The notes under the pieces: model-generated
Told to the model about the DNA's origin: nothing
The model's database searches: none
What the model saw: only the letters and a program-made list of their open reading frames with translations
Assembly: GCA_029212405.1 (NCBI GenBank)
Contig: JARGNR010000011.1
Span: 1-64,000 of the forward strand
DNA length: 64,000 nt
Direction: 5' to 3'
Source of the DNA: Saprospiraceae bacterium
GTDB taxonomy: Bacteria; Bacteroidota; Bacteroidia; Chitinophagales; Saprospiraceae
Translations under genes and position numbers: made by a program
Part shown: in pieces, positions 7,904 through 48,800 of the stretch
How the letters are laid out: each line of letters starts with the position of its first letter
Numbering within the stretch: position 1 is the stretch's first letter

Positions 7904-8102
7904 AACGGAAAATAATAGATAGTTAAATTGATAATATGATTCTTAAGAAAGTTATCCACTTTTTGTTCAGACTTTCGTGTATTTTGTTTCAGTAGATGAT
8001 GATTTTTTAAATTAAAATTGTCTTTTGGTAGGGTAAACAAACGATTAACTGTCTCATCAATACAACTCTGCTTTTTATTTATCGAATTGAAAATAATTGA
8101 AG

Positions 8103-9929
8103 ATGAAAAAATTTTTACCAACGCTTGCTTTCATTTTTACCCTTCAGCTTGTTTTTAGTCAGGCCTACACAGATTATTTAGGTGCTGGACATGCTCAAGA
8201 TTTTGTGGTGACCAGCAGTGATGCACAATCTGATGGATTGAATACTGTCAATGGAAATGGATTGGATTTGGATATTCTAGGGTCGTCCAGATTTCTGGCA
8301 CGTACAACTCTCGGATATACGATTGAAGACATTCAAGAACTGACTGAAATCAATTTACAAGATTGGATTGATGCTCAAATAGTTGTAGAACCTTCGTACA
8401 ATACGCTACCAACAATCGACATCATTTTTAAGTTGTATAATACATGCTTGGAAGAGTTGGGTCCAGAATGCTTGTTGCAATTTAACTTGAATACCAGCAT
8501 GTGGAGATATTCCTGGTGGAATAATGTGATGAATGGAGAAGACAGGCTGAGACAAAGAATTGCATTAGCGTTAAGTGAAATATTGGTTATTTCCGATAAG
8601 TCAATGCTAAACAGTTATCCTCATGGACTTTCTAATTATTATGACATCCTTATCCGAAATGCCTTTGGTAATTATAAAGATATATTAAGAGAGGTAACCC
8701 TGAATCCAAGTATGGGTTTTTATTTGAGTCATATCAATAACCCCAGATCATTTCCTTCTTTAAACATTCGACCTGATGAGAACTATGCGAGAGAAATCAT
8801 GCAACTGTTCAGTATTGGTTTATTTGAATTGAATAATGACGGTACCAGGAAATTAGATCCAGTGACTGGATTGTGGATACCGACCTATGACAATGATGAT
8901 ATCAAAGGACTGGCAAAAGTATTTACAGGTTTGAGTGGAAGTAAATGGGCAGATGATAATAATACATCCCCAGTTACATTTGGAAGAAGATTCTCCGCCT
9001 ATTCCTTATTGGATCCAATGAAAATGTATGAAGAATGGCACGAGCCCGGAGAGAAGCATATTGTGGGGGATTATACCATTCCATCAGGACAAACGGGCAT
9101 GCAAGATATAGATCAAGCGATAGATCATTTATTTAATCATCCTAATGTTGGTCCTTTTTTGGCCTACCGGTTGATTCAGCGGTTGGTAAAATCCAACCCT
9201 TCGCCGGAATACATTGATAGAGTGGCATCGGTTTTTAATAACAATGGTTCAGGTGTAAGAGGGGATATGGCAGCAATGATTCGTCAGATTTTTATGGATG
9301 AGGAAGCATTGGATTGTTATTGGTCAGAGGATGAAAAAAATGGAATGCTTCGTTCGCCAATTTTGCGCCTTACTCAGTTATTAACAGGACTGAAGGCAGA
9401 AACAGAGAATGGTACTTTTTGGAACTCAGGATTGAATTTTGAAGGATTAGCAGGCCAACATCCTTTAGGGTCACCTACAGTTTTCAATTTTTATGCTCCG
9501 GATTATGTTCCAGATGCAGAATTTGCCTACTTAGAAATGGTAGGTCCAGAATTTCAAATACTTAACTCGTCTACCTCTTCCAATTATGTCAATTATATGT
9601 TGATTGCATTGATGAGAGATTATATAAATACGACGTACGGAACTACTTTTGAGAATATTTTGAATGAATCTTTTGCCATTCCATATATTGAAGATAAAGA
9701 GGCCTATGAAGCCTACCTATCAGATCCTTTATGGATGGATTTAGCGTTTTCTCCTGAAGAATTGGTGGATTATTTAGACATTCTTTTAGCAAATGGACAA
9801 TTGAGTGAGGATACCAAATCCTCTATCGTAGAATCCATGAAACGAACAGATATTATTGATCCGATGAATAGCGCTTATTATGCAGCGTACATGATTATGA
9901 TTCATCCAGAATATGTCATCATGAAGTAA
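8103..9929 (+). CDS. DUF1800 family secreted protein
   Basis: A 608-residue protein of the DUF1800 family, whose biochemical function is unknown. An in-frame TTG lies 6 nt upstream, but the ATG at 8103 gives a clean Sec signal peptide (KKFLPTLAFIFTLQLVFSQ). Family hallmarks are the N-terminal RFLARTTLGYTIEDI and LQDWIDAQ, and the central ENYAREIMQLFSIGLFEL. DUF1800 genes are usually followed by DUF1501 genes, as here (40-nt gap), which suggests the two products act together at the cell surface or in the periplasm. No T9SS sorting domain is visible at its C terminus. Confidence 0.88.
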   Translation: MKKFLPTLAFIFTLQLVFSQAYTDYLGAGHAQDFVVTSSDAQSDGLNTVNGNGLDLDILGSSRFLARTTLGYTIEDIQELTEINLQDWIDAQIVVEPSYNTLPTIDIIFKLYNTCLEELGPECLLQFNLNTSMWRYSWWNNVMNGEDRLRQRIALALSEILVISDKSMLNSYPHGLSNYYDILIRNAFGNYKDILREVTLNPSMGFYLSHINNPRSFPSLNIRPDENYAREIMQLFSIGLFELNNDGTRKLDPVTGLWIPTYDNDDIKGLAKVFTGLSGSKWADDNNTSPVTFGRRFSAYSLLDPMKMYEEWHEPGEKHIVGDYTIPSGQTGMQDIDQAIDHLFNHPNVGPFLAYRLIQRLVKSNPSPEYIDRVASVFNNNGSGVRGDMAAMIRQIFMDEEALDCYWSEDEKNGMLRSPILRLTQLLTGLKAETENGTFWNSGLNFEGLAGQHPLGSPTVFNFYAPDYVPDAEFAYLEMVGPEFQILNSSTSSNYVNYMLIALMRDYINTTYGTTFENILNESFAIPYIEDKEAYEAYLSDPLWMDLAFSPEELVDYLDILLANGQLSEDTKSSIVESMKRTDIIDPMNSAYYAAYMIMIHPEYVIMK

Positions 9930-9969
9930 TCCATTCTATTCCATTATTAAACGAATAATAAAAAAGATC

Positions 9970-11364
9970 ATGTCAATACATAAACATTCAAGAAGACATT
10001 TTTTAGGAAGCCTACCTTGTCTCGCATTAGGAACTACCACTCTGTATTCATCATTGATAAATCTCAAGGCGATGAACTCAATTATGGGATCTACTAGTGT
10101 AGTAGGCGGAGATTATAAAGCTATTGTTTGCCTCTTATTAAGTGGAGGAAACGATTCTTATAATATGCTTATTCCTAGAGGAAATGCTGAATATGCCGAA
10201 TACGCAACGGTGAGATCCGATATGGCGATTCCACAAGAAGATATTATTCCTATCAATCCAGAGGTGACAGATGGAAGGGAATTTGGATTACATCCTTCAT
10301 TAACAGGTTTAAAAGACTTGTTTGAGCAAGGGAAAGCTGCATTTATTAGCAATGTGGGCACTTTAGTGGAGCCAACAACTAAAGAGGGAGTGCAAAGTGG
10401 TTTGTCAAATTTACCTCTTGGATTGCTTTCTCATTTAGATCAAGTGATGCACTGGCAGACCGCATTTCCTCAAGATCGTACCAATGAAGGATGGGGTGGA
10501 AAAATGGCAGATATTCTTAAAAGTATGAATGAAGATAATGGGGTTTCTATGAATATCTCATTAGCAGGAAATAATGTTTTCCAAAGAGGCAATACCGTGA
10601 CGGAATATGCTATTAACACAGATGGTGGTGTTGCCATTGCAGGATGGAACGAACAAGCACCATTTCTTCAAATGATGACCGAAGACATTACGGATATGAT
10701 GAACAAAGAATATGAAGATGTATTCATGGACTCATATAAAGGGGTCTTAAAAAGAAGTGTAGAAAGTAATGAAGTTTTTAATGATGCAATTGAAGGTGTA
10801 CCCGTATTAGGGACAGTATTTGGACCGTCACAGTTGGCACAACGAATGAGAATGATTGCACAAACCATTGCAGCCAGAGAAACACTCGGTACAAAACGAC
10901 AAATTTTCTTTGTGGATTTAGGTGGATTTGACAATCATGATGAGTTGATCAACTCCCATGCAGGACTCATGAGTATAGTGGATGATGCAATGACCTCTTT
11001 TTATTTAGCGACAGAAGAAATGGGAGTATCCGATTGTGTGACTACATTTACAATTTCTGACTTTGCTCGGACACTGACCTCCAATGGAAATGGAACAGAT
11101 CATGCATGGGGTGGAAATGCATTCGTAATGGGTGGAGCTGTTAAAGGTAAAAACATGTACGGAACTTATCCAATATTGAATTTGGGAAGTGATTTGGAGT
11201 TGGGTGGAGGTATATTGGTACCTACTACCAGTGCCGATGAATATTTTGCTGAGATTGCCTTATGGTTTGGTATCTCTCCGAATGATTTATCACAGATTTT
11301 GCCCAATATTGGTAATTTTTATGATGTGGCTTCGTCTGAGCGACCACTAGGATTTATGCTTTAA
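9970..11364 (+). CDS. DUF1501 family protein with Tat-type signal
   Basis: A 464-residue DUF1501 protein, related to the sulfatase/alkaline-phosphatase superfamily fold. The N terminus carries a twin-arginine-like signal, SRRHFLGSLPCLALG, at residues 7-21, suggesting folded export. Family motifs include CLLLSGGNDSYNMLIP, FFVDLGGFDNHDE and TISDFARTLTSNGNGTDHAWGG. These contain conserved Asp/His residues that resemble metal-binding positions in the superfamily. It follows the DUF1800 gene by 40 nt and precedes a T9SS cargo gene by 25 nt, so a three-gene operon is likely. The substrate is unknown. Confidence 0.9.
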   Translation: MSIHKHSRRHFLGSLPCLALGTTTLYSSLINLKAMNSIMGSTSVVGGDYKAIVCLLLSGGNDSYNMLIPRGNAEYAEYATVRSDMAIPQEDIIPINPEVTDGREFGLHPSLTGLKDLFEQGKAAFISNVGTLVEPTTKEGVQSGLSNLPLGLLSHLDQVMHWQTAFPQDRTNEGWGGKMADILKSMNEDNGVSMNISLAGNNVFQRGNTVTEYAINTDGGVAIAGWNEQAPFLQMMTEDITDMMNKEYEDVFMDSYKGVLKRSVESNEVFNDAIEGVPVLGTVFGPSQLAQRMRMIAQTIAARETLGTKRQIFFVDLGGFDNHDELINSHAGLMSIVDDAMTSFYLATEEMGVSDCVTTFTISDFARTLTSNGNGTDHAWGGNAFVMGGAVKGKNMYGTYPILNLGSDLELGGGILVPTTSADEYFAEIALWFGISPNDLSQILPNIGNFYDVASSERPLGFML

Positions 11365-11389
11365 TTTAAACCATTTCAAACAGACAATT

Positions 11390-12130
11390 ATGAAACAGAT
11401 ACTATATACATTATTGATTTTTACGTTCACAGCTTTTTCTTCGAACCCATTGCATGCTCAATGCTTTGACGATGGACACAGTCCTTTTCAAAATCAAGGG
11501 TGGTTATCTTGCAGTACGAATGTAGGACCTATACCTGAACGAGGAGATGCACATTGGATTTTGTATGATTTTGGACACTCTTACTCATTGGACTCGCTTC
11601 ATTTTTGGAATCATAATGTGTGGGGAGAAACAGGAATGGGAGCCAAAAGTGTGCTCATCGATTTTTCATTGGATAAAGAAAATTGGAAGACAGTAGGACC
11701 TATTAATATTGACAAAGCACCAGGTTCTTGGAAATACACAGGTGTAGATGGCCCTGTTTTAGACAATGTTTTTGCACGATATGCACTAATTACTGTGTTA
11801 TCTACTTGGGAAGATGGTGCATCTTGTGCAGGTTTAGGAGAAATCAAATTTGGTGTTAATGGAGTCGTAGATGTGGAAGATGTTGAGCCGGACGTGGAAT
11901 GGTCAATCTCGCCAAATCCAGCCATCGATCGAATCAATGTGCAAATGCCAGCGGATAGAGAAATAATCCAACTATCAGTGTACAATGCAGTGGGACAATT
12001 AATGGAAAACATTCAGATTCCTTCTAGCAATGAAATGATCGTTCCCATCCAAGACTACCGAGAAGGAATGTACTTCTTTACAATAACAACAGAGAAAAGC
12101 ATATTAACAAAATCGTTTATTAAAGGATAG
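11390..12130 (+). CDS. Secreted discoidin-like protein with T9SS sorting domain
   Basis: A 246-residue protein with a signal peptide ending near PLHAQ. Residues about 40-160 look like a galactose-binding (F5/8 type C, discoidin-like) beta-sandwich: WILYDFGHSYSLDSLHFWNH, then SVLIDFSLDKENWKTVG. Residues about 172-246 form a type A T9SS sorting domain (WSISPNPAIDRINVQMP, YNAVGQL, YREGMYFFTI, KSFIKG). It is likely exported to the surface or medium and may bind glycans. It is the last gene of the DUF1800/DUF1501 cluster. Confidence 0.85.
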   Translation: MKQILYTLLIFTFTAFSSNPLHAQCFDDGHSPFQNQGWLSCSTNVGPIPERGDAHWILYDFGHSYSLDSLHFWNHNVWGETGMGAKSVLIDFSLDKENWKTVGPINIDKAPGSWKYTGVDGPVLDNVFARYALITVLSTWEDGASCAGLGEIKFGVNGVVDVEDVEPDVEWSISPNPAIDRINVQMPADREIIQLSVYNAVGQLMENIQIPSSNEMIVPIQDYREGMYFFTITTEKSILTKSFIKG

Positions 12131-27600: not shown

Positions 27601-28606
27601 CATAGGTGGTCCCATCTCCATTACCAAAGACAGCTGTGGTTCCTGTCCAGTAGGCATTGTTATAATTGGGAATATTTGTAACCATAGTAATCTTGGAACC
27701 ATTGCCGTCGTACGATAATCTGCCATGTACGGTGGAGAAATATTCAACTGTTTGTTCAGCAGCCCAATGTGCTTGAACCCCGATGTCATCGGTAAATACT
27801 GTGGTGTTGCTAGTAATATCGGTAGTAACAGATGGTCCATTGATGGCTTTGACGGTATGGATACCTCCAGATGTGATGACGGTGTTGAACAAACGATTGG
27901 AACCATTATAATTTTCGGCATCAAAAGAAACCGGTCCATCAAAATAGGCATTGCCAGTAGCGGGTACATTGGAGTGACAAATAATGGAGTTTTCATAGAT
28001 GATTTCACCAGATTGTGCATCTACATAATAGTACGCAGCACTCATGGGCTCGATGCTATAAATGAAATATTTGTAAGTCAAATGGGCGGTTTCACTTACT
28101 CCAGGAATGGGAGGCAGAATTACCAACTCACCCTTAGGTTTACTGTAATTGGTATAATAGATATCGGGGTTTTCTATTTCCCATAAGTAAGTTTTTGCAT
28201 TGATGTGATGGGTGGCGATGTCAAATCCTGCTTCTGGTGTTATACTGGGAGCAATCGACAATGCTTGATCAGGTAGGGGAGTACCGCTAATGCTATAGAT
28301 CGCATTTTGGTTCTTGTGGACCGTATAGTGGCCATACTCAATAGGGATCGAATTGTAAGAAGCAACAAATTTTTCGTGGGATAATCCTTTTGCTTTTTCA
28401 GATTGGACAGATACCGATTTGTAAGCAATGGAAATAGAGGGAGCGAAATAATTGCGTAATAGGTCTTGAGCACTTTTGTTGGCCTCGGACTTGGTTCTAT
28501 CAATTGAGATCAAAGTGGGTTTCAATGTGGAGTGTTGTCCTACTATGGTCATACTAAAAGAGCAGACCATTAAGTAGAGGATGAGGGATACTTTTTTACT
28601 TTTCAT
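24665..28606 (-). CDS. Secreted thermolysin-like (M4) metallopeptidase with Fn3 and T9SS domains
   Basis: A 1313-residue modular exoenzyme. The signal peptide ends near TIVGQ. An FTP/PepSY-type propeptide (about 40-210) precedes the M4 catalytic domain, with HEIAH near residue 350 and the third ligand Glu in GALNESFADIFGE. Two copies of a domain with DGLCC-x-GNGS motifs (ETDGLCCTGGNGSFALMDG and KGDGLCCANGNGSYQITDG) are interleaved with three fibronectin-type III domains. A MAM/carbohydrate-binding-like domain follows, then a T9SS type A sorting domain (VYPNPAQHTISL to TLKFVKTE). It probably degrades extracellular protein. The gene has its own terminator, and the adjacent two-component system may regulate it. 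Confidence 0.92.
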   Translation of the reverse strand: MKSKKVSLILYLMVCSFSMTIVGQHSTLKPTLISIDRTKSEANKSAQDLLRNYFAPSISIAYKSVSVQSEKAKGLSHEKFVASYNSIPIEYGHYTVHKNQNAIYSISGTPLPDQALSIAPSITPEAGFDIATHHINAKTYLWEIENPDIYYTNYSKPKGELVILPPIPGVSETAHLTYKYFIYSIEPMSAAYYYVDAQSGEIIYENSIICHSNVPATGNAYFDGPVSFDAENYNGSNRLFNTVITSGGIHTVKAINGPSVTTDITSNTTVFTDDIGVQAHWAAEQTVEYFSTVHGRLSYDGNGSKITMVTNIPNYNNAYWTGTTAVFGNGDGTTYDNFASLDIVGHEIAHGVVGTSAGLIYSYESGALNESFADIFGECVEANTQGSNDWLLGEDTKIGSGQAFRSMSNPNTYSHPDTYKGTYWVTGSYDNGGVHFNSGVQNHWFYLLVNGGTGSNDWNNSYSVTGIGKAKAEAIAYRNLTVYLTPTSGYADARTGAIQSAIDLYGNGSAEEIAVTNAWHAVGVGTYYNNPNPLSCTSPNLTLMITFDDRPDLIAWNINDNVTGNFIAAKFVNDYSINQANSTINEPIQISSSGLYRLNFYDLETDGLCCTGGNGSFALMDGNTVVHSGSIFDLSDNIEFCVDVEAGPNRETNRPTVPQNVTVSNITSNSADLNWDASTDDTGLFQYFVFVNGVWQAVPTNSLSLSGLIPNTLYSIDVFAQDQLNNFSVKGQTLTFNTLISTDTAPPSSPTNLMASNITANSFDLSWDAATDNVGVDHYDVFLDGNLYTSTSNLTTALVGLSANTMYDNYVVAVDAAGNTSIASTTLSTTTSNSGPVCASGPLTLTINFDNNPNQVAWELKDKNNQTYAFSSQNDYINQLPGSTISIALPSLSDGDYAFVMYDSKGDGLCCANGNGSYQITDGTAIIVSGSNYDFSKVTQFCVNQTNGDVIDKIPPTTPVLSYSNIGSTTIDLSWTPSTDNETLFGYGFFLNGTYYGWVDYSFSSLTLPGLSPNTTYDLFIVSRDIIGNFSEKSNTITFTTTGGVTSTVIHEGYFETGWDGWIDGGNDCRRMSTQYAAEGAKSVRIRDNSGVASSMTSQDFDLTSYDSVRVEFEYYAQSMENNEDFWLLFEENNTWTNIKSYVKNVDFTSDGFYSGSVLLSASQYAFASNNSFRFQCDASGNGDKIYIDAVVITAYGTSTNFVPLDQPEYDINEFLIFGEPASLSNAPSEEIEPKEVVDIDVYPNPAQHTISLRYDDMDQLQNVALFTIQGQKIMQTSNYKNIDISQLSEGIYYLQVQLKSKEVSTLKFVKTE

Positions 28607-29259: not shown

Positions 29260-30735
29260 CTATTCTGCAAATAACTTTTTCCATTCCAATTTATAAATGA
29301 CGATAACCAAGATTCCAAGTAATAGGGTGACAATTCCAAAATAGGAAATACTAACTCCCAGCACTGGTCTGAGATAGAGAACAAAAATAGAAAGTGCAAC
29401 AGTAACTCCTACATAGGAAAGAATCCTTCGTACTGGATAATTTACTGGGTAGTACCTCTGTCCTACAAAATACCCAACAACAACCATACTTACATAACAT
29501 GCAAGAGCCGCCCAAGCAGAGGCAATCGTTCCAATTTTGGGTAATAAAAGCAGGCTGATACATATCGTGATGAATGCTCCCATAAAAGAGATCAAGGCAC
29601 CGATATACGTTTTATCTTTTAATTTGTACCATATAGATACATTGTAATACAGACCAAGAAAAACATAGGCGAAAAGTAATATAGGAACAATATTGACTCC
29701 TGAACGATACGTTTCACCTAAAAGTAAAATAATGACATCAATATAAAAAATGAGTCCTACTGCCGCCAAGCAAGCTACAATAGTAAATGCAAGAGCCACT
29801 TTCCCATAAATCTGAAGAGAATCTTTTCGGTCAGCATTATTAAAAAAGAAGGGCTCTGCTGCATAATTAAATGCAGTAGTAAACAAATTCAATAAGATGG
29901 CCAATTTTGCAGCGGCCCCATACACTCCTGCATTAGCAAGATTATCCATAATGTCATTTCCTAAAAAGTACTTTTGTAATGGGGCTGCAAACGCTTGATT
30001 TATGTTTCCTGCCAAGGCAACAGCAACGAGAGGTAAAGCGTACCACAGCATTTTTTTAAACAAGTCATAATCAAAAGAAGGTCGGAAGGATTTGAATTCA
30101 GGTAGCATGGCAATCACTACTGCTCCTGAAGCCAAAAGATTGGCAAAAAAGACATAATCAATTTGTCGATGTACCCCTAGAAATGTATTCAATCTATCAA
30201 ACTCCGCTGGAAAATAAGAAGGAAGAAACTCCAGAAATGCTAAGACAAGAACTAAGGTGAGTCCCACATTGATCAATTTATATACCATAAAGCGAATGGG
30301 CCTACTTTGTAACCTTAATCGGGCAAAAACAAGTGCTGTAATTGCATCTAAAACAAGGATGTAGGCAAACCATTTTATATAGTGTGGTGATTCGTTGTAC
30401 TTCAATATTTTTGCTAAACTGTCAATATTGGGAAGCAAAATCAGCAATACAATGGCACAAAATCCGAGTACACCTAAAAATCCCGTATTGAATACTTTCT
30501 GTAAATCTCCCTTGCTCCCGTAACGAAAAAAGGCCGTATCCATACGAAATACCAATATGGTAAGAATGACAGCGGCATAGCTATACATATCGGTATAAAT
30601 ACCATATTCTGTAGTATCACCATCAAATCTTCGAGTGAGATAAAACGTGAAAACGATAAATAGTAATACCCTAGAGAGGATATGACTCAATCCATAGATC
30701 GCCGTTTCACCTGCAAGTTTTTTTAATAAGGACAT
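29260..30735 (-). CDS. Polysaccharide biosynthesis flippase (Wzx/MATE-like)
   Basis: A 491-residue integral membrane protein with about 12-14 hydrophobic helices and the N-terminal KKLAGETAIYGLSHILSRVL segment typical of polysaccharide flippases of the MOP superfamily. It would move lipid-linked oligosaccharides across the inner membrane for surface polysaccharide assembly. No glycosyltransferase genes are adjacent, so the substrate is unknown. The gene ends before a strong hairpin terminator and is separated from the upstream HD-domain gene by 95 nt. Confidence 0.85.
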   Translation of the reverse strand: MSLLKKLAGETAIYGLSHILSRVLLFIVFTFYLTRRFDGDTTEYGIYTDMYSYAAVILTILVFRMDTAFFRYGSKGDLQKVFNTGFLGVLGFCAIVLLILLPNIDSLAKILKYNESPHYIKWFAYILVLDAITALVFARLRLQSRPIRFMVYKLINVGLTLVLVLAFLEFLPSYFPAEFDRLNTFLGVHRQIDYVFFANLLASGAVVIAMLPEFKSFRPSFDYDLFKKMLWYALPLVAVALAGNINQAFAAPLQKYFLGNDIMDNLANAGVYGAAAKLAILLNLFTTAFNYAAEPFFFNNADRKDSLQIYGKVALAFTIVACLAAVGLIFYIDVIILLLGETYRSGVNIVPILLFAYVFLGLYYNVSIWYKLKDKTYIGALISFMGAFITICISLLLLPKIGTIASAWAALACYVSMVVVGYFVGQRYYPVNYPVRRILSYVGVTVALSIFVLYLRPVLGVSISYFGIVTLLLGILVIVIYKLEWKKLFAE

Positions 30736-35913: not shown

Positions 35914-36954
35914 TTATCTGAATATAAACCCTTTCCTATAATCATCACTTGGGTCAAACCAAAATTCATTTTTACCTACAAATGATGCAGTACCGGATAC
36001 TTCTGGGATCACTGCTTTATATCCATGGAATAAAACTTCTTCTTTTACTTCGACAGTCATGGTACTGCCCAAAATGCTTTCTATGGTGATTTTTTCTCTC
36101 AATCCTAATTCTCCTTTGGTATAGTGCAGACTTGCTCGTGCACTGACTCCTGAGCCCGTTGCTGATCTATCCAATTCTCCTTCAGCAAAAATGCACACAT
36201 TTCTACTGTGATGATTTGAATCAAAAGCACTTCCGGTAAAAATTGTCCCATATAAAAAACTGAGGTCATCTGTAGTTGGATGAATGATGTCAAAATTGGA
36301 CATCACGGCATGTTTAATCAATTTTCCAACATGGATCAGTGTGTTGTGATTGGAAGCATCCATTGAAATATTCAATTGATCGGCATCTACGAATGCATAA
36401 AATGCTCCTCCAAATGCCACATCAAATTTTACTTGGCCCAACTCATTTACTTCGACTTCTTTATTCTGCAGATATAGAAACGATGGTACATTGGTAAAAT
36501 AAGTACGTTTAACTATTCCATTTTCAAATTTGGCTCTCGCTTTTACTTGACCCGCAGGTACATTTATGACTAGTTGAGAACTATGTTTTGGTACTAATAA
36601 TTGAGTTTCAAATACAAATTTTGTGAGTGCTATTATGGCATGGCCACACATGGTGGAGTATCCTTCGTTGTGAATAAAGAATACATCAAAATCTGCGTCT
36701 GGAGTTGATGGGTCTGAAAGAATTGCTCCATACATATCAGCATGGCCTCTTGGTTCAAACATGAGCCCCGTGCGTAAATGATCAAAATGTGTTTGAAAAT
36801 AACGACGCTTTTCTAAGACATTCTCTCCTTTAATCTCCGGCAGTCCATGGATAGGAATTCTAAGAGGCTCTCCTCCAGTATGCATATCAATACAAGTGAT
36901 TTTCTTAAAAAAGTCATGTCCATGAAAATCAAATCCATTTAATATTTCTTCCAT
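35914..36954 (-). CDS. Trans-3-hydroxy-L-proline dehydratase (proline racemase superfamily)
   Basis: The predicted reaction dehydrates trans-3-hydroxy-L-proline to pyrroline-2-carboxylate. The open frame extends to 37071, but the ATG at 36954 directly precedes the conserved domain and lies 1 nt after the upstream stop, giving 346 residues. The first catalytic residue is Cys103 in TMCGHAII. The second catalytic position, Cys in racemases and epimerases, is Thr266 in DRSATGSGVSAR. A Cys/Thr pair is the signature of this dehydratase in the superfamily. It is the last gene of the ECF/FecR/receptor operon. Proline racemase or 4-hydroxyproline epimerase activity is unlikely because of Thr266. Confidence 0.85.
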   Translation of the reverse strand: MEEILNGFDFHGHDFFKKITCIDMHTGGEPLRIPIHGLPEIKGENVLEKRRYFQTHFDHLRTGLMFEPRGHADMYGAILSDPSTPDADFDVFFIHNEGYSTMCGHAIIALTKFVFETQLLVPKHSSQLVINVPAGQVKARAKFENGIVKRTYFTNVPSFLYLQNKEVEVNELGQVKFDVAFGGAFYAFVDADQLNISMDASNHNTLIHVGKLIKHAVMSNFDIIHPTTDDLSFLYGTIFTGSAFDSNHHSRNVCIFAEGELDRSATGSGVSARASLHYTKGELGLREKITIESILGSTMTVEVKEEVLFHGYKAVIPEVSGTASFVGKNEFWFDPSDDYRKGFIFR

Positions 36955-36955
36955 C

Positions 36956-37894
36956 TCAAAAATTGTTTTGTTTTTCAAAAATAGCTTGAGCAAGCACCAA
37001 GTCAAAGATTGCATTCCCGACAGACTTAAAAACCATCGTTTTCTTGTTGATTTGTTTGGTGTGACCTGCAAGTACTTGGTCCAAATTAATAATATTTTGA
37101 GGTGTCAGCCACTTTTGATCGATTGCATTGATTACATCGCCGACTTCTGATAGAGCTGTTTCTGTATCAATAATAAGTTCTTCTGTCTGGCGGTATACCT
37201 GCTCAGGAAGTTCCTGCATTTGTTTAGTAAATGAGCCTACACTAATGAAGTGTTTAGTGGATAGATCCATGCCTGAAGCGTTGAAAACTGGCGTTTGTGA
37301 TGTTGTACAAGTGAAGATTATTTCAGATAATTGGACCACTTCTTCTGCTGATGAACACCAATGAAACTTTACGTTTGGAAAGTCCAACTGAAGTCTTTCT
37401 TTAAATTGTGTGAATTTTGAGGGACTTCTTGAATAAGCATATATATGGGGAATTGTTTTCCTACTTAGCATAAATTTGATCTGCCAATATCCCTGCACGC
37501 CTAAGCCGATTACGCCTAATCGATCACATTTTTCAGGGTGTATCAGATCTGCACCGATGTTGCCCACTGCAGCAGTTCGGAGTGCTGTAATGGACGGAGC
37601 ATCCATGGTGCACAATATTTCTCCAGTTTGACTGCGATTCAGCACTAAAATGCCAGATATAACAGGAAGGTCCTGAGAAAGATTATTGGGATTTACGGAA
37701 ATTAGTTTTGTACAAGAAAAGTCTATACCAAATGCAGGCATAATTAATTTTGTAGAATCATTTCTTGAAATATGAGTGCGTTCTGGAATTTCATATTTCC
37801 CATCGGAAAAGTCTTTAATTCCTTTTATAACAATTTCAATCACCTCTTGAGGAGAAAATAAACCTTCGATTTCTTTTTGGGAATAATGATCCAT
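36956..37894 (-). CDS. Ornithine cyclodeaminase-family protein, likely pyrroline-2-carboxylate reductase
   Basis: A 312-residue member of the ornithine cyclodeaminase/mu-crystallin family. The Rossmann nucleotide loop is DRLGVIGLGVQGYWQIKFM (about 133-151). SALRTAAVGNIGADL-like residues (SITALRTAAVGNIGADL) precede it. Because the next gene, 1 nt downstream, encodes a trans-3-hydroxyproline dehydratase, the likely role is reduction of pyrroline-2-carboxylate to L-proline with NAD(P)H, as in LhpI proteins. True ornithine cyclodeaminase is the alternative. It starts 5 nt after the receptor gene stop, so it belongs to the same operon. Confidence 0.85.
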   Translation of the reverse strand: MDHYSQKEIEGLFSPQEVIEIVIKGIKDFSDGKYEIPERTHISRNDSTKLIMPAFGIDFSCTKLISVNPNNLSQDLPVISGILVLNRSQTGEILCTMDAPSITALRTAAVGNIGADLIHPEKCDRLGVIGLGVQGYWQIKFMLSRKTIPHIYAYSRSPSKFTQFKERLQLDFPNVKFHWCSSAEEVVQLSEIIFTCTTSQTPVFNASGMDLSTKHFISVGSFTKQMQELPEQVYRQTEELIIDTETALSEVGDVINAIDQKWLTPQNIINLDQVLAGHTKQINKKTMVFKSVGNAIFDLVLAQAIFEKQNNF

Positions 37895-37899
37895 TATTA

Positions 37900-40476
37900 T
37901 TAATTCAATCTGAAATTTACAGAGATATTAGGTGTAAATCGCAACCCTCTTTCATTGATTTCTAATAAAAGTGGATCCTCTTCATTGGAATTATCGAGCA
38001 AATAATTTCTACCCAAAATATTGATCCTATTCCCCATGTTTTGAAGAGAAAACCCAATGAATCCGTTTACCTCATTTTTCATAGTGAAGTTGTATATAAT
38101 TGAACCATCCATTCGAAAATAATCTTTTAACCGAAGTGTGTTTGGAGATCCATATACAATGCTATCATTGTTTAGAAATGCTTGAGTGGCTGGTAATCCG
38201 CTACGATATTCAAGTCCAAGAGAGAATTCAAATGATTTGTATTTATACATATGTACCCATTTCAAAACATGGGTTTGATCATGAGAGGCGATGATAGGGT
38301 CGAGGGATATTCCTGGAAACTCATATTTTGTTCTGGAAAGGCTATAACTCAACCAACTTCTATACCTTTTTATCCTCTTTTTTATGAGAAAATCAATTCC
38401 TCTTATTCTAGAATTTCCGCTACTAAATGGCTTTTCATTTAATTCAACGAAAGTGCTGGTCAGGGTGGTGATTCCTGCCAATTCTTTTACATAGCCTTCA
38501 ATGTCGAAGGTCCAGCTTCCCTTTTGAAAAAAGATACCTCCCATCCATTGGTTGGATTCAATCACAGGAATAAATCCATTCGTATTTTCTAATTTATTGG
38601 TTGCAGTTACCCATATCTCATTATTTAATCCCAAAAAGTTGGTGTCAAACCCAACCAATTGACTCACGAATTGAAAATGTTTTCCAGTACTGATTTTCAA
38701 TTTTAAATTTTCAGAAATATGAGAAACCATTGAAATTCTAGGTTCAAAGTAATTGTTCTTCAAAATATCTTGGTACAGATATCGAAGACCAACTTCTATT
38801 TGAAGAGACTTGGGCAATCTAAAAGAGTATTCTCCATACAAAGCATGTAGGCGATTCTGTAATACTTGATTTGAAGAGGCGGTATCCTTTCTATTGATTT
38901 GTGTGATGTCTAGCGAAGTCCTGTTTTCAGTATATTGATATCCAAAATTCACATTTTGGTCTTCGTTTAATACATACTTGTTGTTCCAATTCAGCCCACC
39001 ATCAGTTATTGAATTTCTTGAATCTAAAGAAAATGGAGCCTTTGTATTGTCAAATTTACTTCGGAAAGAAAATGTATAATCATACTTATATTCCGCATTG
39101 GTCAAATCTAATTTTGAGCTATATCTTTCATTCCACTGTCTTTCCCAAGAAAAGATCGCCCCTGCATTTCTTAAGTTTAGGACTTCAATAGAATAGAAAT
39201 CCAAATCGTCAAAATTAGACTTGTAGTTCAATGTATTTAAAGTGCCTAATGACGTAAATCGGAATTTGTTTTTCCCATAATCCATCATCCATTTTAAGTT
39301 GGCATCATTAAATTTATATTCATCGCTGAATTGTAGATCGGGAGAGTTAAAGTCATTTTCTTCTACTCGCGTACCTTGAAATACCTTTTCGGCATATCGC
39401 ACAAACGTAGGAGTATTCCAAGCATCTGTAATACTTCTGCGACTGGAGATCATCAACGATGAGTTTTTCCATAATGGAATGTCAAAATCCAAATGTGCAT
39501 GGGTCAGATTAAATCCTGCTCCCATATTAAAATTGTCTGTTATTTCTTCTTTAGAATGAATGTCAATAACACTTGAAACTCTGCCACCAAACTCGCTTCC
39601 AATACCACTTCTGTGTACATTGACATGATCAATAATGTTGGGGTTAAATGCTGAAATGGTACCAAAGAAATGACTGGTATGATACATGGGTATCCCATCC
39701 CACAAGATTAAATTTTGGTCGGGAGTACCTCCTCTCACATGAATACCATCTAAGGATTCACCAGGTGAGGTAATACCGGGAAGGAATTGCATGGTCGCTA
39801 ATACATCTTTTTCAACTGAGCCTGGTAAGACATCCATCTCTTGAGGTTCAATAACAACGATATTGGCGTTTTCAGTTTGATTGATTCCATCTGTTAAGTA
39901 CTCTTTGAGGATCACCGGTTCAAAAGAGACGCTTTGAGAAGCCAATTTATAGGTCAGGCATGGACTAGTTGAGAGGTTTTGTAGAGGGATTTCCAACCTA
40001 TTGTAACCAAGAAAAGAGATGTAAATGGAACGATCAGTAGGCGAAACAGAAATTTTAAAGTAACCATTCTGATCACTTTCGGCTCCATACGATTTTGTAT
40101 CGTTAAAAATAGATGCAAATGGAACGGGTTCATCTGTAAGCGCATCGGTGACATAACCACATAGATATTTCAATTGATGAACACCTTTATTTACAGTTAA
40201 AACAATGTGTTTGGTGTCTATAAATTCAAAATCCAAATCCGTTTGATTAAATATGTCTTGTAGAACTTGTTGAAGAGAGAAACTTCCCTCTTTTGTTGTT
40301 ATGAAATGACTGCTAATACGGTCATCATCATAAGAAAATACTATTTGATGTTTTGACTCGAGATAAACCAGAACTTCCTTTAAAGGAGCTTGATCAAATG
40401 CATCATAGGTATTTTGTGCCACAGCTTGAATGACAAATTGCGTTAAAAAAAGTGTTGTCAAAAGCACCTTCTTCAT
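37900..40476 (-). CDS. TonB-dependent outer-membrane receptor with STN domain
   Basis: An 858-residue receptor. The signal peptide ends near IQAVAQ. An STN signalling domain lies at about 25-95 and a carboxypeptidase-regulatory-like beta domain at about 103-180. The plug is at about 210-320 (GIHVRGGTPDQNLILWDGIP, IGSEFGGRVSSVIDI), and a beta barrel runs to the C-terminal aromatic-rich strand. It imports a substrate using TonB and, through STN, can signal to the FecR protein encoded 20 nt upstream. No SusD partner gene is present. The substrate is unknown; hydroxyproline-containing peptides are inferred from the downstream genes. Confidence 0.92.
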   Translation of the reverse strand: MKKVLLTTLFLTQFVIQAVAQNTYDAFDQAPLKEVLVYLESKHQIVFSYDDDRISSHFITTKEGSFSLQQVLQDIFNQTDLDFEFIDTKHIVLTVNKGVHQLKYLCGYVTDALTDEPVPFASIFNDTKSYGAESDQNGYFKISVSPTDRSIYISFLGYNRLEIPLQNLSTSPCLTYKLASQSVSFEPVILKEYLTDGINQTENANIVVIEPQEMDVLPGSVEKDVLATMQFLPGITSPGESLDGIHVRGGTPDQNLILWDGIPMYHTSHFFGTISAFNPNIIDHVNVHRSGIGSEFGGRVSSVIDIHSKEEITDNFNMGAGFNLTHAHLDFDIPLWKNSSLMISSRRSITDAWNTPTFVRYAEKVFQGTRVEENDFNSPDLQFSDEYKFNDANLKWMMDYGKNKFRFTSLGTLNTLNYKSNFDDLDFYSIEVLNLRNAGAIFSWERQWNERYSSKLDLTNAEYKYDYTFSFRSKFDNTKAPFSLDSRNSITDGGLNWNNKYVLNEDQNVNFGYQYTENRTSLDITQINRKDTASSNQVLQNRLHALYGEYSFRLPKSLQIEVGLRYLYQDILKNNYFEPRISMVSHISENLKLKISTGKHFQFVSQLVGFDTNFLGLNNEIWVTATNKLENTNGFIPVIESNQWMGGIFFQKGSWTFDIEGYVKELAGITTLTSTFVELNEKPFSSGNSRIRGIDFLIKKRIKRYRSWLSYSLSRTKYEFPGISLDPIIASHDQTHVLKWVHMYKYKSFEFSLGLEYRSGLPATQAFLNNDSIVYGSPNTLRLKDYFRMDGSIIYNFTMKNEVNGFIGFSLQNMGNRINILGRNYLLDNSNEEDPLLLEINERGLRFTPNISVNFRLN

Positions 40477-40496
40477 CCCTATTGTTTCATTTGATT

Positions 40497-41420
40497 TTAA
40501 TCAGTAAAGACAACTTTATGCTGGCCTTCCATTTTGTAGGATATTCCCATAGGTGAAAGTACCATATTTAATGCTTTTTTTAAGTCATTGTGGACAAAGC
40601 TTCCAGTAAATCTTCTAGACTTTAACGTTGGAGGCAAGTCAATTGTAACATCATAATTACCGGATAAAGATAAAATGACCTCTTCTAATCGAGCACTTGA
40701 AAAATAGGAATCACCACTCTGCCATGTTCCAATTCTGTTGGGATTTTGAAAAACACGACCTTGAAATTTTTGGTTGTCGATTCGGATGCTTTCACCTTTT
40801 GATAAGACTATAGAATGTGTTCCAGATTCCACTTGCACTTTACCTGTTTTACAGGCAACTACCAAGATTTCGTCTCTAGAAAAAACATTGAATGAAGTTC
40901 CTAAAACTGTAATACTTCCCAAATTTGTTTTTACCCTAAACGTACTGCCTTCTTGCACGTTGAAGAATGCTTCTCCTTCCAAATGCATACGTCGCTCTTC
41001 TGTAAAGTCAGGACGATAATCAATAGCACTATTGCCATTGAGGACGACTTTGGAACCATCTGGAAGGATATGGGATACATATTGACCTACATTGGTATAT
41101 ATTGTTGGTGAGTCAGAAAACAAAAATAGGAATGATACGAGCAAGATTCCCACAGCGGCAATCGCCATTATTGTACGTCGAAGCGTAACAATTTTAGTAG
41201 GTGTTGAGGCTTTTGAATCAGTCTTGGATATTTTTTTAGTAATGTTGGCAAACGCAATTTTTGTATCCATTTGTGGATAGGGTAGGTGTTCGGTTTCTGA
41301 TACAATCTTTTGATAATCTTTAAACTCAGGGGTGTTTTCAAAAATAGAAGATTCCTCTGCTGTAAGATCTCCTTCCAGCCAGCGAATTAATAATTTATCT
41401 TTTTCTTCTTCCGTTTTCAT
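40497..41420 (-). CDS. FecR-family anti-sigma factor
   Basis: A 307-residue inner-membrane regulator. The cytoplasmic N-terminal part (1-80, KLLIRWLEGDLTAEE) binds the sigma factor. A membrane helix lies at about 84-102. The periplasmic FecR domain holds LPDGSKVVLNGNSAIDY and VLGTSFNVFS, and the C-terminal domain (RFTGSFVHNDLKKALNMVL) resembles the STN-binding region. It should relay occupancy of the receptor to the ECF sigma factor encoded 55 nt upstream. Confidence 0.94.
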   Translation of the reverse strand: MKTEEEKDKLLIRWLEGDLTAEESSIFENTPEFKDYQKIVSETEHLPYPQMDTKIAFANITKKISKTDSKASTPTKIVTLRRTIMAIAAVGILLVSFLFLFSDSPTIYTNVGQYVSHILPDGSKVVLNGNSAIDYRPDFTEERRMHLEGEAFFNVQEGSTFRVKTNLGSITVLGTSFNVFSRDEILVVACKTGKVQVESGTHSIVLSKGESIRIDNQKFQGRVFQNPNRIGTWQSGDSYFSSARLEEVILSLSGNYDVTIDLPPTLKSRRFTGSFVHNDLKKALNMVLSPMGISYKMEGQHKVVFTD

Positions 41421-41475
41421 GTATATATTTTCCTATACCTATTCAATAGACAGTTTATTGTATCAATACCCTACC

Positions 41476-41976
41476 TTAAATGTTTGAAATAGTTGTTCTC
41501 AATTGTTTTAAAGCCAGTGCCATTCGTTTTTCCACAGCTTTTTGGCTTAGCTCTAAGAGTTTAGCAATCTCTTTGTATTTATACCCATCTATTCTGTGCA
41601 TTAAAAAAACCTCTCGTTGCTTATCTGGTAAATTTTCTATAGCAGATTCTAATTTTAGTTTAAACTCGCTTTCCTCTAGCTTAAAATGGGGGTCAATATT
41701 TTCAGTTTTTTGGAGTTGATTTGCTTCGTGCTTCTGGACTACATTTTGGTGTGCAATAATGTTGTAAAGTAAATTTTTTGCAGTGGTGTAGAGGTAGCTT
41801 TTTTCCTTTCCTTCTTCAATGGATTCCATTTTATCCCAGTACTTGACGAAGGAATCTTGAACGATGTCTTGTGCTAACTGTTTGTCTTTTGATTTGAAAT
41901 ATATAAAACGAAATAAAGCTTGAGCCCATGCCTCATAATTGGTTTTAAACTTGAGCTCTTTATTATTTTTGTGCAT
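41476..41976 (-). CDS. ECF RNA polymerase sigma factor (FecI-like)
   Basis: A 166-residue ECF sigma factor. Region 2 is seen at about 12-75 (DIVQDSFVKYWDKM, YLYTTAKNLLYN) and region 4 at about 105-160 (LPDKQREVFLMHRIDGYKYKEIAKLLELSQKAVEKRM, split here only for reading). It heads an operon with fecR, a TonB-dependent receptor and two hydroxyproline-metabolism genes, and should activate that operon when released by FecR. The ATG at 41976 is 21 nt downstream of a TACATTTG element. Confidence 0.94.
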   Translation of the reverse strand: MHKNNKELKFKTNYEAWAQALFRFIYFKSKDKQLAQDIVQDSFVKYWDKMESIEEGKEKSYLYTTAKNLLYNIIAHQNVVQKHEANQLQKTENIDPHFKLEESEFKLKLESAIENLPDKQREVFLMHRIDGYKYKEIAKLLELSQKAVEKRMALALKQLRTTISNI

Positions 41977-43399: not shown

Positions 43400-44131
43400 G
43401 TGAGAATAGTATCTTTGGTTCCTTCTTTAACCGAACTTCTATTTGATTTAGGGCTCCATCATAACATTATTGGTAGAACAAAGTTTTGTATCCATCCATC
43501 AGACCAAGTACAATCAGTTGCTAAGATCGGAGGAACTAAAAAAGTGGATATTGAACTCACTCGAAGCTTACAACCAGATTTGGTTATTGCGAATAAAGAA
43601 GAAAACACACGATCCGATGTAGAGGCTCTTCGCACGTTTACTAAAGTGCTAGTTACCGATATTTTCGATTTTCATTCTGCTATTCAGGCGATGGAGACTA
43701 TTGGAAAATTAACAGATACGGAATCAAAAGCTAAAACAATTATAGATCAAATAAATCTTGCTTTTAAGGATATAAAACAACGTAATACGACGAAAAAATC
43801 TGTTTGTTATCTCATTTGGAATGATCCAATTATGTCAATTGGGAGAGATACATTTATCCATGATATGCTTCATAAATGTGGATATATAAATGTATTTGAG
43901 AAGCAAACAAGGTATCCGACCATTAGTGAAGATCTGCTTATAAAGAAGAATCCCGATTGTATCTTTTTATCATCCGAGCCATTTCCTTTTAAACAAAAAC
44001 ATATTCAAAAGTATAGAGAGATTTGTCCAAGCTCTAAAATCGTCATTGTTGATGGAGAGTATTTTAGTTGGTATGGCAGCCGTATGTTAAAAGCGGTAAG
44101 CTATTTTAATGAACTTATTGATAGTGTATAA
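43400..44131 (+). CDS. BtuF-like helical-backbone metal receptor protein
   Basis: A 243-residue protein with the periplasmic-binding fold of BtuF/FhuD-type proteins: RIVSLVPSLTELLFDLGLH, LVIANKEENTRSDVEAL, then the long backbone helix and YLIWNDPIMSIGRDTFIHDM. Such proteins bind cobalamin or siderophore-metal complexes. It starts at a GTG (43400) directly with the first beta strand and has no signal peptide, unlike transporter partners, and no BtuCD genes are adjacent. It may work in the cytoplasm or have another role. The call to family is firm, the ligand is not. Confidence 0.82.
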   Translation: MRIVSLVPSLTELLFDLGLHHNIIGRTKFCIHPSDQVQSVAKIGGTKKVDIELTRSLQPDLVIANKEENTRSDVEALRTFTKVLVTDIFDFHSAIQAMETIGKLTDTESKAKTIIDQINLAFKDIKQRNTTKKSVCYLIWNDPIMSIGRDTFIHDMLHKCGYINVFEKQTRYPTISEDLLIKKNPDCIFLSSEPFPFKQKHIQKYREICPSSKIVIVDGEYFSWYGSRMLKAVSYFNELIDSV

Positions 44132-45837: not shown

Positions 45838-48800
45838 CTATTCTGACGCTTCACTTTTGTTGGTTACTACCTCCACCCATTGCCCTTTTGTTTTGGCTTG
45901 GATTTCATTGTCATACATTGCTTCTGCAAAAACAGGTGGTAAATAAAACCTTCCAGCATATGTTGCATTCAATAAGATAGAGTAAGTCATGGTGTTGATT
46001 CCATTAATATCAAAAAAAGTATAGACCCGGTCATCTCGTATATCTCGGTAATCATACCTGCTGTTTTGAGTGACATTTGACATACTCGATAATCGTTCAT
46101 TTTGAATCTCCCAGCCAGATGGAAATATTTGTGAAAGGGCCATTTCTTGAATGTTATTCGCTCTTGTCCCTAAATTCTGTATGGTTACCTTGACTACAAA
46201 GTCTGTTCCCTGATTTATTCTTGTATGATCTATAGGAGCACCTTTAATATCGGTATAGGTAACCTTCATATTTATGTGCTTGCTTTCAGCAGGTTCTTCC
46301 ACTCCAGGTGGCAGTTGTCCGCTCAATACATATCTAACAAACATGACGGCCTCTGATGTGTTTTTTACTTTGACATTTTTTTCACTCGAATTCTCTACAT
46401 CCACCGTCTTTTGGACAGTAGGTGCAGTAGAAATTCCTGATTCAGTAGCTGCTCCATTAATCGCATATTGGAATTTGAATTCATCACTTTTATATTGTGA
46501 TAAAAACTTACCTAAGCTCAATAAAGCATAGGAAGTAGTCTGCGTGCCATACCATTGTTGCGAACTCATTTCTTTGGCAATTTGCTTGATCAATTGAGCA
46601 TTCTCATTTACATTGCCAATGATCAATTGGGCTTCTGCCATCATAGCCATGTCACGTACATGTGAGCCATAGGTATATCCCGTTTCGATATAAGGTTTTA
46701 TGGTAAGTTCTTTGTTTGCTACCAATTGCTTTGCGATTTCCTTTTTACCAATGAGCGCATAAGAAGCCGCTAGCATGTGCGCTCCAGATAGACTTAAATG
46801 TTTATAATTACGCAGAATGTTCATAGCACCAATATTTGCTCTACCTGCTTTTGCTAAGGTATACAAACGATACGCTTGCGTATTGACTCTCCATTGATGC
46901 TTATTCTTAAAAGTGCTCGGCAAGCTGACACTCTCAGCTTGGCTGTCTTGGTACTTCAGCAACTTATTCAATAGCGATTGAGAAACAAAGTATCCTTTTT
47001 CTTTTGCTTCCAACAAAAAGTGTAGTCCGTAGTTGCTTCCCCATTCATTTGGTCTACTGCCACCTGGCCAATAAGAAAAACCTCCTGAATTGGTTTGAAA
47101 TAATGCCAATCTCTGGATGGCTCGATTGATGTTTTTTTCAATTTTGTACTTTGTTTTTTCATCCAGTTCTGTCACTTTATCCAGATATAATTGAGGAAAA
47201 ACAGAAGATGTAGTTTGTTCAATACACCCATATGGATAACGAACTAGATATTTCAGTCTTCTACTAAAATTCATTGGAGGGATCGTACTTAATTCCAATA
47301 CTCCTTCATTACTACCGTTTGTTCCAAAAGGTATATAATCCATTGCCCATTCTTGCCCTGGTTGGATTGTAGCTTCATATACTTTTGAGGTGTACGGATT
47401 TGGATTTCGGATATTGATATTAACTTCATCGAATGCGCCTTCACCATTCCCTTGTGCTCTAATTTTCACATTGGCTGGACCCATCTCATTGCCTACACTC
47501 ATATCAAAATAGGCTTGTTTGTCACCAATTTTATCAAAGTAGATATTTTGAGTTGTGCCATTTATTAATGAGAGGTTGTCGCTGGTTTCTACGGAGACTT
47601 TAACATCCTTCACTTTATCTTCCATTGCAAAAATATTAGCGGGAAGTTTTAAAGTTTCATTCGGACCTAATACTCTGGGTAAGGTAGCCAATACCATGAG
47701 TGGTTTTTTCACAGGTGTTGCTTCTTCTGCTTTTCCATAGGCATCGTTATGCCTGGCAACAATCATTGTTCGTACGGATCCAACGTAGTTGGGCATTTGA
47801 ATTACATGGCTATGCTCTTCACCAGAAGACATTGTAAAAGGGCCCAAGTGTTTTACTACGGGCACAAATCGATTGGCCTTTTTGCCTTTTTTGCTTCCAC
47901 TCGCCCCCAAATCTCCACCAATTGAAATCAATCGATCGATTGCGCCACCATATCCATCAAGAACCATATCATAAATATCCCATGTTTTGATTCCCAACGC
48001 TTGTTTAGAGTAAAAATGATTCCATAAATCAGGAGTTTTGAATCGAGTTAAATCCAATAAACCTTCATCCACAACTGCAAGTGTGTAACTCATGGGACGA
48101 CCCAATTTTTCAGATACTTTCACCGTAAATGATTGATTGGGTCTTATTTCTTTAGGAAGACTGAGTTCAGGCTCAATTTGGGATGCTCCATCAATCACGG
48201 TAATTGGTACAATTCCGTACATACGCATAGGGAGATCATTGTCTCCATTGTTATGCGGTTGGATTAAATGCACATGGAGATAAACATTTGAGTTCATGGA
48301 AGACTCAGCTGGAATTGTGATACTTGTTTCATCTTTTTCTCCATCTACCCAGAATGTTTTCAAAACGTCTTTCCCATTTTCTATGGAGACCAATAATTTT
48401 GACCCTGCATTGGAAGGGACTTTTAGTGTAATATTATCTCCTGTGGTGTACGATTTTTTATCGGTAGAGAATATCAATTGCTGAGGGCCGTTTTGTTCTT
48501 TATTTCGGCTCCAAGAGTATCCTGTATAAAACATATCTCCAGTACAATGACCGCTTACTTCATCGCATACTCGAATCATATAATTCCCATATCCTTCAAA
48601 CTCTACATTATGCATAGCTTGTCCCATGCTATTTGTTTGAATGGTGGTTTTACTCAAAGCTCCTTTATGTAGGGAAGAATTAAAATTGTATTTTCTGCTG
48701 TATCCTCTATCATACCACCAGTTCCATTCTGCTTTGTAAATGCCGATAGTAAGATTTCTATTTGGAATGGGTTTTCCATCTGTATCCAAAACTACTATTG

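Follow-up and report, generated by a model that had tools for sequence, protein, structure and literature searches.

Gene organisation of the locus

The locus lies in a 64,000-nucleotide stretch of a Saprospiraceae bacterium genome (contig JARGNR010000011.1; the whole stretch is referred to as the window) and consists of five minus-strand genes separated by intergenic gaps of 55, 20, 5 and 1 nt, an arrangement given in a preliminary description of this DNA and verified here in both coordinates and order. The five genes, together with a cluster outside the unit that bears on its history, are:

41476..41976, minus strand: ECF sigma factor (FecI-like, Bacteroidota type), by Sigma70_r2 and Sigma70_r4_2 (Pfam) and TIGR02985
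40497..41420, minus strand: FecR-type anti-sigma factor, by PF04773 and PF16344 above cut-off (Pfam)
37900..40476, minus strand: TonB-dependent receptor carrying CarbopepD_reg_2 and, at its N-terminus, a weak STN-like domain, by Pfam plug/barrel, relatives and tree
36956..37894, minus strand: OCD/mu-crystallin family protein, predicted Pyr2C (ketimine) reductase, by OCD_Mu_crystall (Pfam)
35914..36954, minus strand: proline-racemase-family protein, predicted T3Hyp dehydratase, by Pro_racemase (Pfam), residues and PDB relative
8097..12130, plus strand: DUF1800 / DUF1501 / discoidin-T9SS-tail cluster, outside the five-gene unit, by BLAST relatives

The dehydratase gene was taken to start at the ATG at 36954, in agreement with its homologues, and not at the TTG at 37071 given by the mechanical ORF list. 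ECF sigma factor, FecR and TonB receptor stand together in one unit, the sigma gene scoring 128.3 bits against TIGR02985 (cut-off 126.4) and the receptor carrying Pfam plug, barrel and CarbopepD_reg_2 domains. In its isolated N-terminus the STN profile PF07660 remained sub-threshold at 23.2 bits (cut-off 28.4), and FecR_C reached 25.3 (cut-off 24.4). Pfam profiles recognised no SusD or transporter besides the receptor within the unit, in agreement with the preliminary description. A Peripla_BP_2 gene is found outside it, on the opposite strand at 43400-44131.

Predicted activities of the two enzymes

Residues 21-343 encoded by the last gene matched positions 1-324 of the 325-position Pro_racemase profile (Pfam) at 330.5 bits, and the Cys103 and Thr266 already reported for it were verified by alignment. 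This C/T pair was present in 69 of the 70 dehydratase-clade rows of the family alignment, from which ORF selection had left out two of the 72 family loci, and the remaining row lacked the Cys segment. T3Hyp dehydratase is described as being of the Cys-Thr type in PMC4364671. The best PDB match was 6r76, the T. litoralis T3Hyp dehydratase (375.9 bits), and Met102, Tyr186 and Ser268 align with Met103, Tyr188 and Thr270 of T. litoralis T3LHypD, for which PMC9309405 gives Met103, Tyr192 and Ser275 in the human enzyme; at Ser268 the window protein thus has the serine of the human enzyme as opposed to the threonine of T. litoralis. The top NCBIfam model scored 330.1 bits, under its cut-off, so the dehydratase is predicted only by its residues, its nearest solved relative and its gene context, with no equivalog assigned. 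A proline racemase or 4-hydroxyproline epimerase was rejected for this gene because of Thr266 and because the other PF05544 gene of the genome is the epimerase; that paralogue (L104) has C/C and scores 578.6 bits as 4-hydroxyproline epimerase (cut-off 376).

The neighbouring gene, the sole PF02423 match found in the genome, scored 137.1 bits against OCD_Mu_crystall (Pfam). Its nearest solved chain is the Pyr2C reductase 6t3e (113.1 bits, PDB), on which ground a true ornithine cyclodeaminase was rejected. In the segment compared for the cyclodeaminase aspartate (Asp228 of ornithine cyclodeaminase), it reads VGSFTKQMQEL, aligned with IGADGPGKQEL of alanine dehydrogenase. Scores against NCBIfam fell under the equivalog cut-offs (NF045512, 129.1 vs 400 bits; NF006379, 183.5 vs 417 bits), and the gene was therefore assigned to neither. 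The earlier readings of the two genes as dehydratase and Pyr2C reductase hold as predictions, the first from the C/T residues, the nearest solved relative and the pairing with a reductase gene, the second from the proximity to 6t3e and the recurrent pairing with a dehydratase. The name LhpI is ambiguous, since PMC5144071 uses it for an aconitase-X cis-3-hydroxyproline dehydratase (LhpG there being T3Hyp dehydratase and LhpH/K the reductase) and NCBIfam NF045512 for a reductase.

Recurrence of the enzyme pair and its linkage to receptors

Of the 72 dehydratase loci of the window's family, 21 have a reductase gene immediately upstream. Immediate neighbours were also found in the genome_contigs set (80 dehydratase loci; reductase upstream in 21, downstream in 5) and in the order/phylum set (31 dehydratase loci; upstream in 4, downstream in 13). 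That the two enzymes form a standard pair, predicted to convert 3-hydroxyproline to proline, is well supported as a prediction from the nearest solved relatives and from gene context. The dehydratase would turn trans-3-hydroxyproline into Delta1-pyrroline-2-carboxylate, which the OCD-family reductase would convert to L-proline, and this could in turn be oxidised by the proline dehydrogenase for which the same genome has a gene at another place. Three family dehydratase loci (L074, L087, L091) contain a relative (42-48%) of the gene found at 29260-30735 in the window. In the window this gene is 5.2 kb beyond the dehydratase; in the three loci the distance is 1.6-6.4 kb, two upstream and one downstream.

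That the pair was acquired recently by horizontal transfer from a source beyond the family was rejected on gene tree and base composition: the dehydratase clusters with nine family members (10-row set, SH-aLRT 98), and GC per kb in the unit (0.34-0.37) is close to that of the flanks (0.32-0.41).

The preliminary description had proposed that cell-surface signalling controls the uptake and catabolism of 3-hydroxyproline. In such a functional operon, the receptor would sense and import 3-hydroxyproline peptides and, with FecR relaying the signal to the sigma factor, would induce itself and both enzymes. The 5-nt and 1-nt gaps on one strand and the lack of a terminator-like site between receptor and OCD gene would suit this, as would other genes of the genome, which carries a predicted trans-4-hydroxyproline operon as well as the proline dehydrogenase and a partial M9 (collagenase-type) match, which covers positions 154-265 of the 289-position profile at 29.7 bits (cut-off 26). 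Elsewhere in Bacteroidota, and in further phyla, the dehydratase is often found among proline-peptide-type peptidase genes and in one locus beside SusC/SusD; in L218 SusC/SusD adjoin hydroxyproline genes. FecR and a receptor-like gene also lie on the same strand within 6 kb of the dehydratase, non-contiguously, in L034 (downstream) and L047 (upstream). Against this reading, however, none of the peptidase types searched was found within five genes of the window dehydratase, no inner-membrane transporter was recognised in the unit by Pfam, and of the 161 distinct dehydratase loci whose upstream sequence extends to 400 nt or more, only the window has this receptor immediately in front. Among the other paired family loci, the 17 for which this much upstream sequence is available were all without the trio, the upstream sequence of three more being too short to tell. 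The neighbourhood search for the receptor-enzyme order, named beforehand as a test, thus showed metabolic and receptor genes unlinked in the related genomes of the sample. This is the outcome that the preliminary description had named, in its genomic part, as refuting the proposal, and it speaks against a trio-pair linkage conserved in relatives.

Relatives of the signalling trio

Receptor relatives with 42-53% identity were found in seven genomes and form with the window receptor a group of eight (100/100), in which the latter pairs with that of G157 (99/96). In all six of the closest receptor relatives from outside the genus, an ECF/FecR/receptor trio is divergent to a DUF1800/DUF1501/discoidin cluster (L138-L143; BLAST identities to the window of 45-55% for sigma, 35-40% for FecR and 42-47% for the receptor). 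Relatives of that cluster persist in the window at 8097-12130, about 26 kb away, with 46-64%, 56-70% and 37-50% identity. A dehydratase-clade match was present in one of the seven closest-receptor genomes, G149, on another contig; the comparison genomes are mostly drafts, and such absences can therefore be gaps. G157 has its receptor on one contig and the best sigma/FecR pair on another, and the genome search found no dehydratase match. With the closest receptors beside other genes and six of their seven genomes showing no dehydratase-clade match, the proposed signalling control is not supported by the relatives examined, and we consider the functional operon unlikely.

Against solved structures, a single-sequence search with the receptor gave no match, and its profile gave six weak matches, mostly in the plug/N-terminal region, with no clue to a ligand. 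We infer that the ligand need not be hydroxyproline, and sensing of hydroxyproline is possible. A capture of the salvage pair by a FecIRA-type module, whose receptor would sense 3-hydroxyproline-containing (collagen-like) peptides and induce the degrading enzymes, so that signalling would serve an amino acid and not iron or glycans, is in our view unlikely.

Transcription signals and proposed history of the unit

No terminator-like site was found at the receptor-OCD junction (overall, 5 such sites vs 4.3, chance level), and this, together with the 5-nt gap, makes co-transcription in this genome likely. Alternatively, the pair could be a mere neighbour, transcribed from a separate promoter in the last part of the receptor gene and outside sigma/FecR control, in keeping with its occurrence elsewhere without the trio. 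Sigma-70-like matches do occur inside the receptor gene, although the region as a whole holds 18 against 25.1 expected from shuffles. Against this alternative, the Bacteroidota promoter pattern TTTG-N17-23-TAnnTTTG was not found on the coding strand of that gene, the one nearby match lying at 37006-36976 inside the OCD gene (six in the whole window vs 4.7 expected, chance level). We regard this alternative as quite improbable.

The account that we favour, with reasonable though far from full confidence, is that two native modules were joined into one transcription unit by local rearrangement in the window's lineage. The first would be the ECF sigma/FecR/TonB-receptor surface-signalling trio, next to the DUF1800/DUF1501/discoidin cluster in close relatives, and the second the putative trans-3-hydroxyproline salvage pair. 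Local rearrangement probably set the enzyme pair 5 nt behind the receptor, so that receptor and pair today most likely share a transcript; no sister genome with the site empty was found. Because the relatives examined hold trio and pair apart, we rate a common function as possible but not as likely; the lineage-specific link may still be functional.

Comparison with known systems

The preliminary description knew of no characterised example of this layout, and the titles and abstract beginnings found in literature searches on FecR/receptor systems with hydroxyproline likewise show none; those on hydroxyproline with SusD or collagen, and on Saprospiraceae with hydroxyproline, contain no described example. 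Gene neighbourhoods with the same two enzyme families are described for T3Hyp dehydratase and OCD-superfamily Pyr2C reductase (PMC4113996; T. litoralis OCC_00387 and OCC_00362(7), PMC4364671), and as far as described there these systems share with the window the Cys/Thr catalytic pair and the predicted pathway from T3Hyp through Pyr2C to L-proline. The L-hydroxyproline clusters of PMC5144071 contain ABC-type transporter and regulator genes, and the main text of that article does not mention TonB, whereas the window has a TonB receptor. On the signalling side, E. coli FecI/FecR/FecA, as presented in PMC9249621, likewise comprises an ECF sigma factor, a FecR with FecR_C and a TonB receptor, in the same order, the receptor's N-terminal STN domain having a sub-threshold counterpart in the window; in contrast, the window receptor bears CarbopepD_reg_2, its unit is without a recognised iron-transport gene, and two amino-acid enzymes come after. 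Also close are the L138-L143 trios, with related sigma, FecR and receptor, which differ in that they are transcribed divergently from the DUF1800 cluster and have no enzyme pair. The parts are known, and their combination is seen once. If the link is functional, hydroxyproline peptides would be a ligand class for a Bacteroidota ECF/FecR receptor; if not, the locus would exemplify how neighbour-based transfer of function can mislead, since two modules that have separate partners in relatives look like one operon when only one genome is considered.

Layout and predicted activities of the five-gene unit

The preliminary description had reported five minus-strand genes separated by 55, 20, 5 and 1 nt, and the coordinates of the genes bear out this gene set, its strands and its gaps. 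Its recognition of the parts, which are all of known kinds, was right, with domain scans in agreement.

41976-41476, minus strand, ECF sigma factor (TIGR02985 match above cut-off)
41420-40497, minus strand, FecR protein (FecR and FecR_C domains)
40476-37900, minus strand, TonB-dependent receptor (plug/barrel and CarbopepD_reg_2 domains)
37894-36956, minus strand, OCD-family protein, predicted Pyr2C reductase (OCD_Mu_crystall domain)
36954-35914, minus strand, proline-racemase-family protein, predicted trans-3-hydroxyproline (T3Hyp) dehydratase (Pro_racemase domain)

The third gene, previously called an STN receptor, does encode a receptor by its plug/barrel domains, with the STN domain a sub-threshold match only. 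The unit is flanked by a convergent RecQ gene at one side and another, divergent ECF sigma gene at the other. The window also encodes an M4 metallopeptidase (thermolysin-type) that is secreted and carries fn3 domains as well as a type IX secretion tail (24665-28606, 7 kb from the unit) and a bacterial alpha-2-macroglobulin of 1844 aa (45838-51372).

Alignment placed Cys103 and Thr266 at the catalytic positions of the proline-racemase-family protein, as had been claimed. In a solved-structure search its closest relative was 6r76 (375.9 bits), described as the T. litoralis T3Hyp dehydratase (PMC9309405), and that of the OCD protein was 6t3e, a Pyr2C reductase (113.1 bits). Purified members of both enzyme families are described as having these activities, their discovery aided by gene-neighbourhood networks (PMC4113996). 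As neither protein reached the equivalog cut-offs in an NCBIfam scan, both enzyme names are predictions. A genome-wide profile search gave one PF02423 match in the window's own genome.

Separate occurrence of the trio and the pair

Dehydratase loci were drawn from a family set of 72 (the window and 71 dehydratase-clade loci among the matches listed from 298 same-family genomes), a wider contig scan of other Bacteroidota and further phyla (80 loci kept, among at least 588 matching stretches) and an order/phylum set of 31, duplicates of family loci excluded. Removal of duplicates and ORFs below 300 aa left 174 distinct dehydratases, of which 161 were informative, their upstream sequence, counted from the pair or from the dehydratase, being 400 nt or longer. 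The trio had no share in the recurrence of the pair: a receptor immediately upstream was detected in the window only, of the 161 distinct loci listed, using a model built from the receptor's own kin, with best matches listed only, short flanks that could conceal truncated receptors, and draft assemblies for most compared genomes. No description of the layout was found in titles and abstract starts of the open-licence literature.

We consider the unit to be probably two modules, likely co-transcribed; most simply, a local rearrangement would have set two native modules one after the other. Nearby FecR or receptor-like genes on the dehydratase strand at four loci in a 6-kb search speak against this: L034 (FecR 3.5 kb and a receptor-like gene 4.6 kb downstream), L047 (FecR 3.8 kb and a receptor-like gene 2.1 kb upstream, two genes between), L083 (a weak receptor-domain match within 6 kb) and L218 (a SusC gene within 6 kb). 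The first two weigh little, because the FecR density of the window's own genome (7 matches in 6.8 Mb) predicts an estimated number of about one such coincidence in 71 loci, although other genomes may carry more.

An OCD gene lies immediately upstream of the dehydratase in 21 of the 72 family loci listed. Of the 80 wider-scan loci listed, 21 have the gene immediately upstream, 5 downstream and 11 on the same strand within 4 kb, and for the order/phylum set (n=31) the corresponding counts are 4, 13 and 1. The pairing recurs, yet is not the rule. At L077 and L086 the dehydratase starts 2 nt after a gene judged by eye to resemble a threonine dehydratase/serine racemase-type enzyme.

In a tree of 21 receptors, the window receptor was one of 8 that separated from the rest at 100/100, and grouped with that of G157, a genome of the same genus (99/96). 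All six group members from outside the genus (L138-L143) have sigma, FecR and receptor genes divergent from a DUF1800/DUF1501/discoidin-T9SS cluster. A DUF1800/DUF1501/discoidin cluster is present in the window too (8097-12130), where about 26 kb separate it from the receptor gene. DUF1800 and DUF1501 are described as of unknown function and linked to bacterial chitin synthase genes (PMC5122149). The trio's position beside such clusters seems a more promising guide to what the receptor does.

G157 has its receptor on one contig without adjoining sigma/FecR genes and its best sigma/FecR pair on another without a receptor; a dehydratase was searched for there and not found. G220 has a sigma/FecR pair with no adjoining receptor, and G064 a FecR fragment. 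Two-gene units of sigma/FecR relatives (60-61% and 41-43%) with no adjoining receptor were seen in same-genus genomes (L287:4822-6287, L288:8244-9713). Among the seven genomes with the closest receptors, a match to the dehydratase clade came from one (G149), where it and the receptor lie on separate contigs; the search gave only a 35-36% type in G016 and G197 and no match in the other four. Receptors are therefore kept without hydroxyproline genes, and pairs without the receptor, in the compared genomes.

Transcription and control of the unit

A shared transcript is likely now, because the last two gaps are 5 and 1 nt and no terminator-like site was found at the receptor-OCD junction; a weak minus-strand match lies inside the OCD gene. 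Control of the pair by the trio's sigma factor could have been gained, and mere adjacency of pair and trio is quite improbable.

The preliminary description had gone further, proposing a functional operon in which surface signalling by the trio governs hydroxyproline uptake and catabolism. The gaps and the terminator-free junction agree with this, as do the single partial M9 match in the window's own genome, barely above cut-off, dehydratase neighbourhoods in other Bacteroidota and further phyla that point to peptide-derived hydroxyproline, and the SusC/SusD genes of the L218 dehydratase locus; but the trio-pair combination was met once in the sample, and we think the proposal unlikely.

The window's own genome also holds, at L104, a C/C paralogue of the dehydratase, above the 4-hydroxyproline epimerase cut-off, on the same strand as genes of DHDPS, aldehyde-dehydrogenase and D-amino-acid-dehydrogenase type (all three short of their NCBIfam cut-offs), a predicted trans-4-hydroxyproline route. 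Proline dehydrogenase is encoded as well, and catabolism of both hydroxyprolines by this organism is plausible.

Comparison with hydroxyproline loci elsewhere

Within five genes of the dehydratase, the 80 wider-scan loci listed carried relatives of M24 Xaa-Pro aminopeptidases (20 loci), S37 (14), S9 (13) and C69 (12) peptidases, and glycyl-radical trans-4-hydroxyproline dehydratases (8, the NCBIfam check covering L175 and L220 only). Of these types M24 alone was present in family loci (2/70), and none was found in the window within that distance. At L175 (563-10044) and L220 (5674-10041) the T3Hyp dehydratase has an activase-like gene and a glycyl-radical trans-4-hydroxyproline dehydratase nearby, the latter above the NF043068 cut-off at each locus.

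L190 (4322-13062) has, by Pfam, the order M24 aminopeptidase, OCD, S9 dipeptidyl peptidase, dehydratase, S37 peptidase and C69 dipeptidase, and L212 (4176-13422) the same order by sequence resemblance; both are proline-peptide catabolic clusters. L218 (1859-19030), from Cytophagales bacterium Alg240-R148, is a merged hydroxyproline locus with all genes on one strand: DHDPS, aldehyde dehydrogenase, OCD, a second proline-racemase gene (4HypE-like by eye), a D-amino-acid-dehydrogenase-like gene, an Xaa-Pro-dipeptidase-like amidohydrolase, T3Hyp dehydratase, S9 peptidase, SusC, SusD and M24 aminopeptidase. This locus is a better candidate for hydroxyproline-peptide utilisation than the window's unit.
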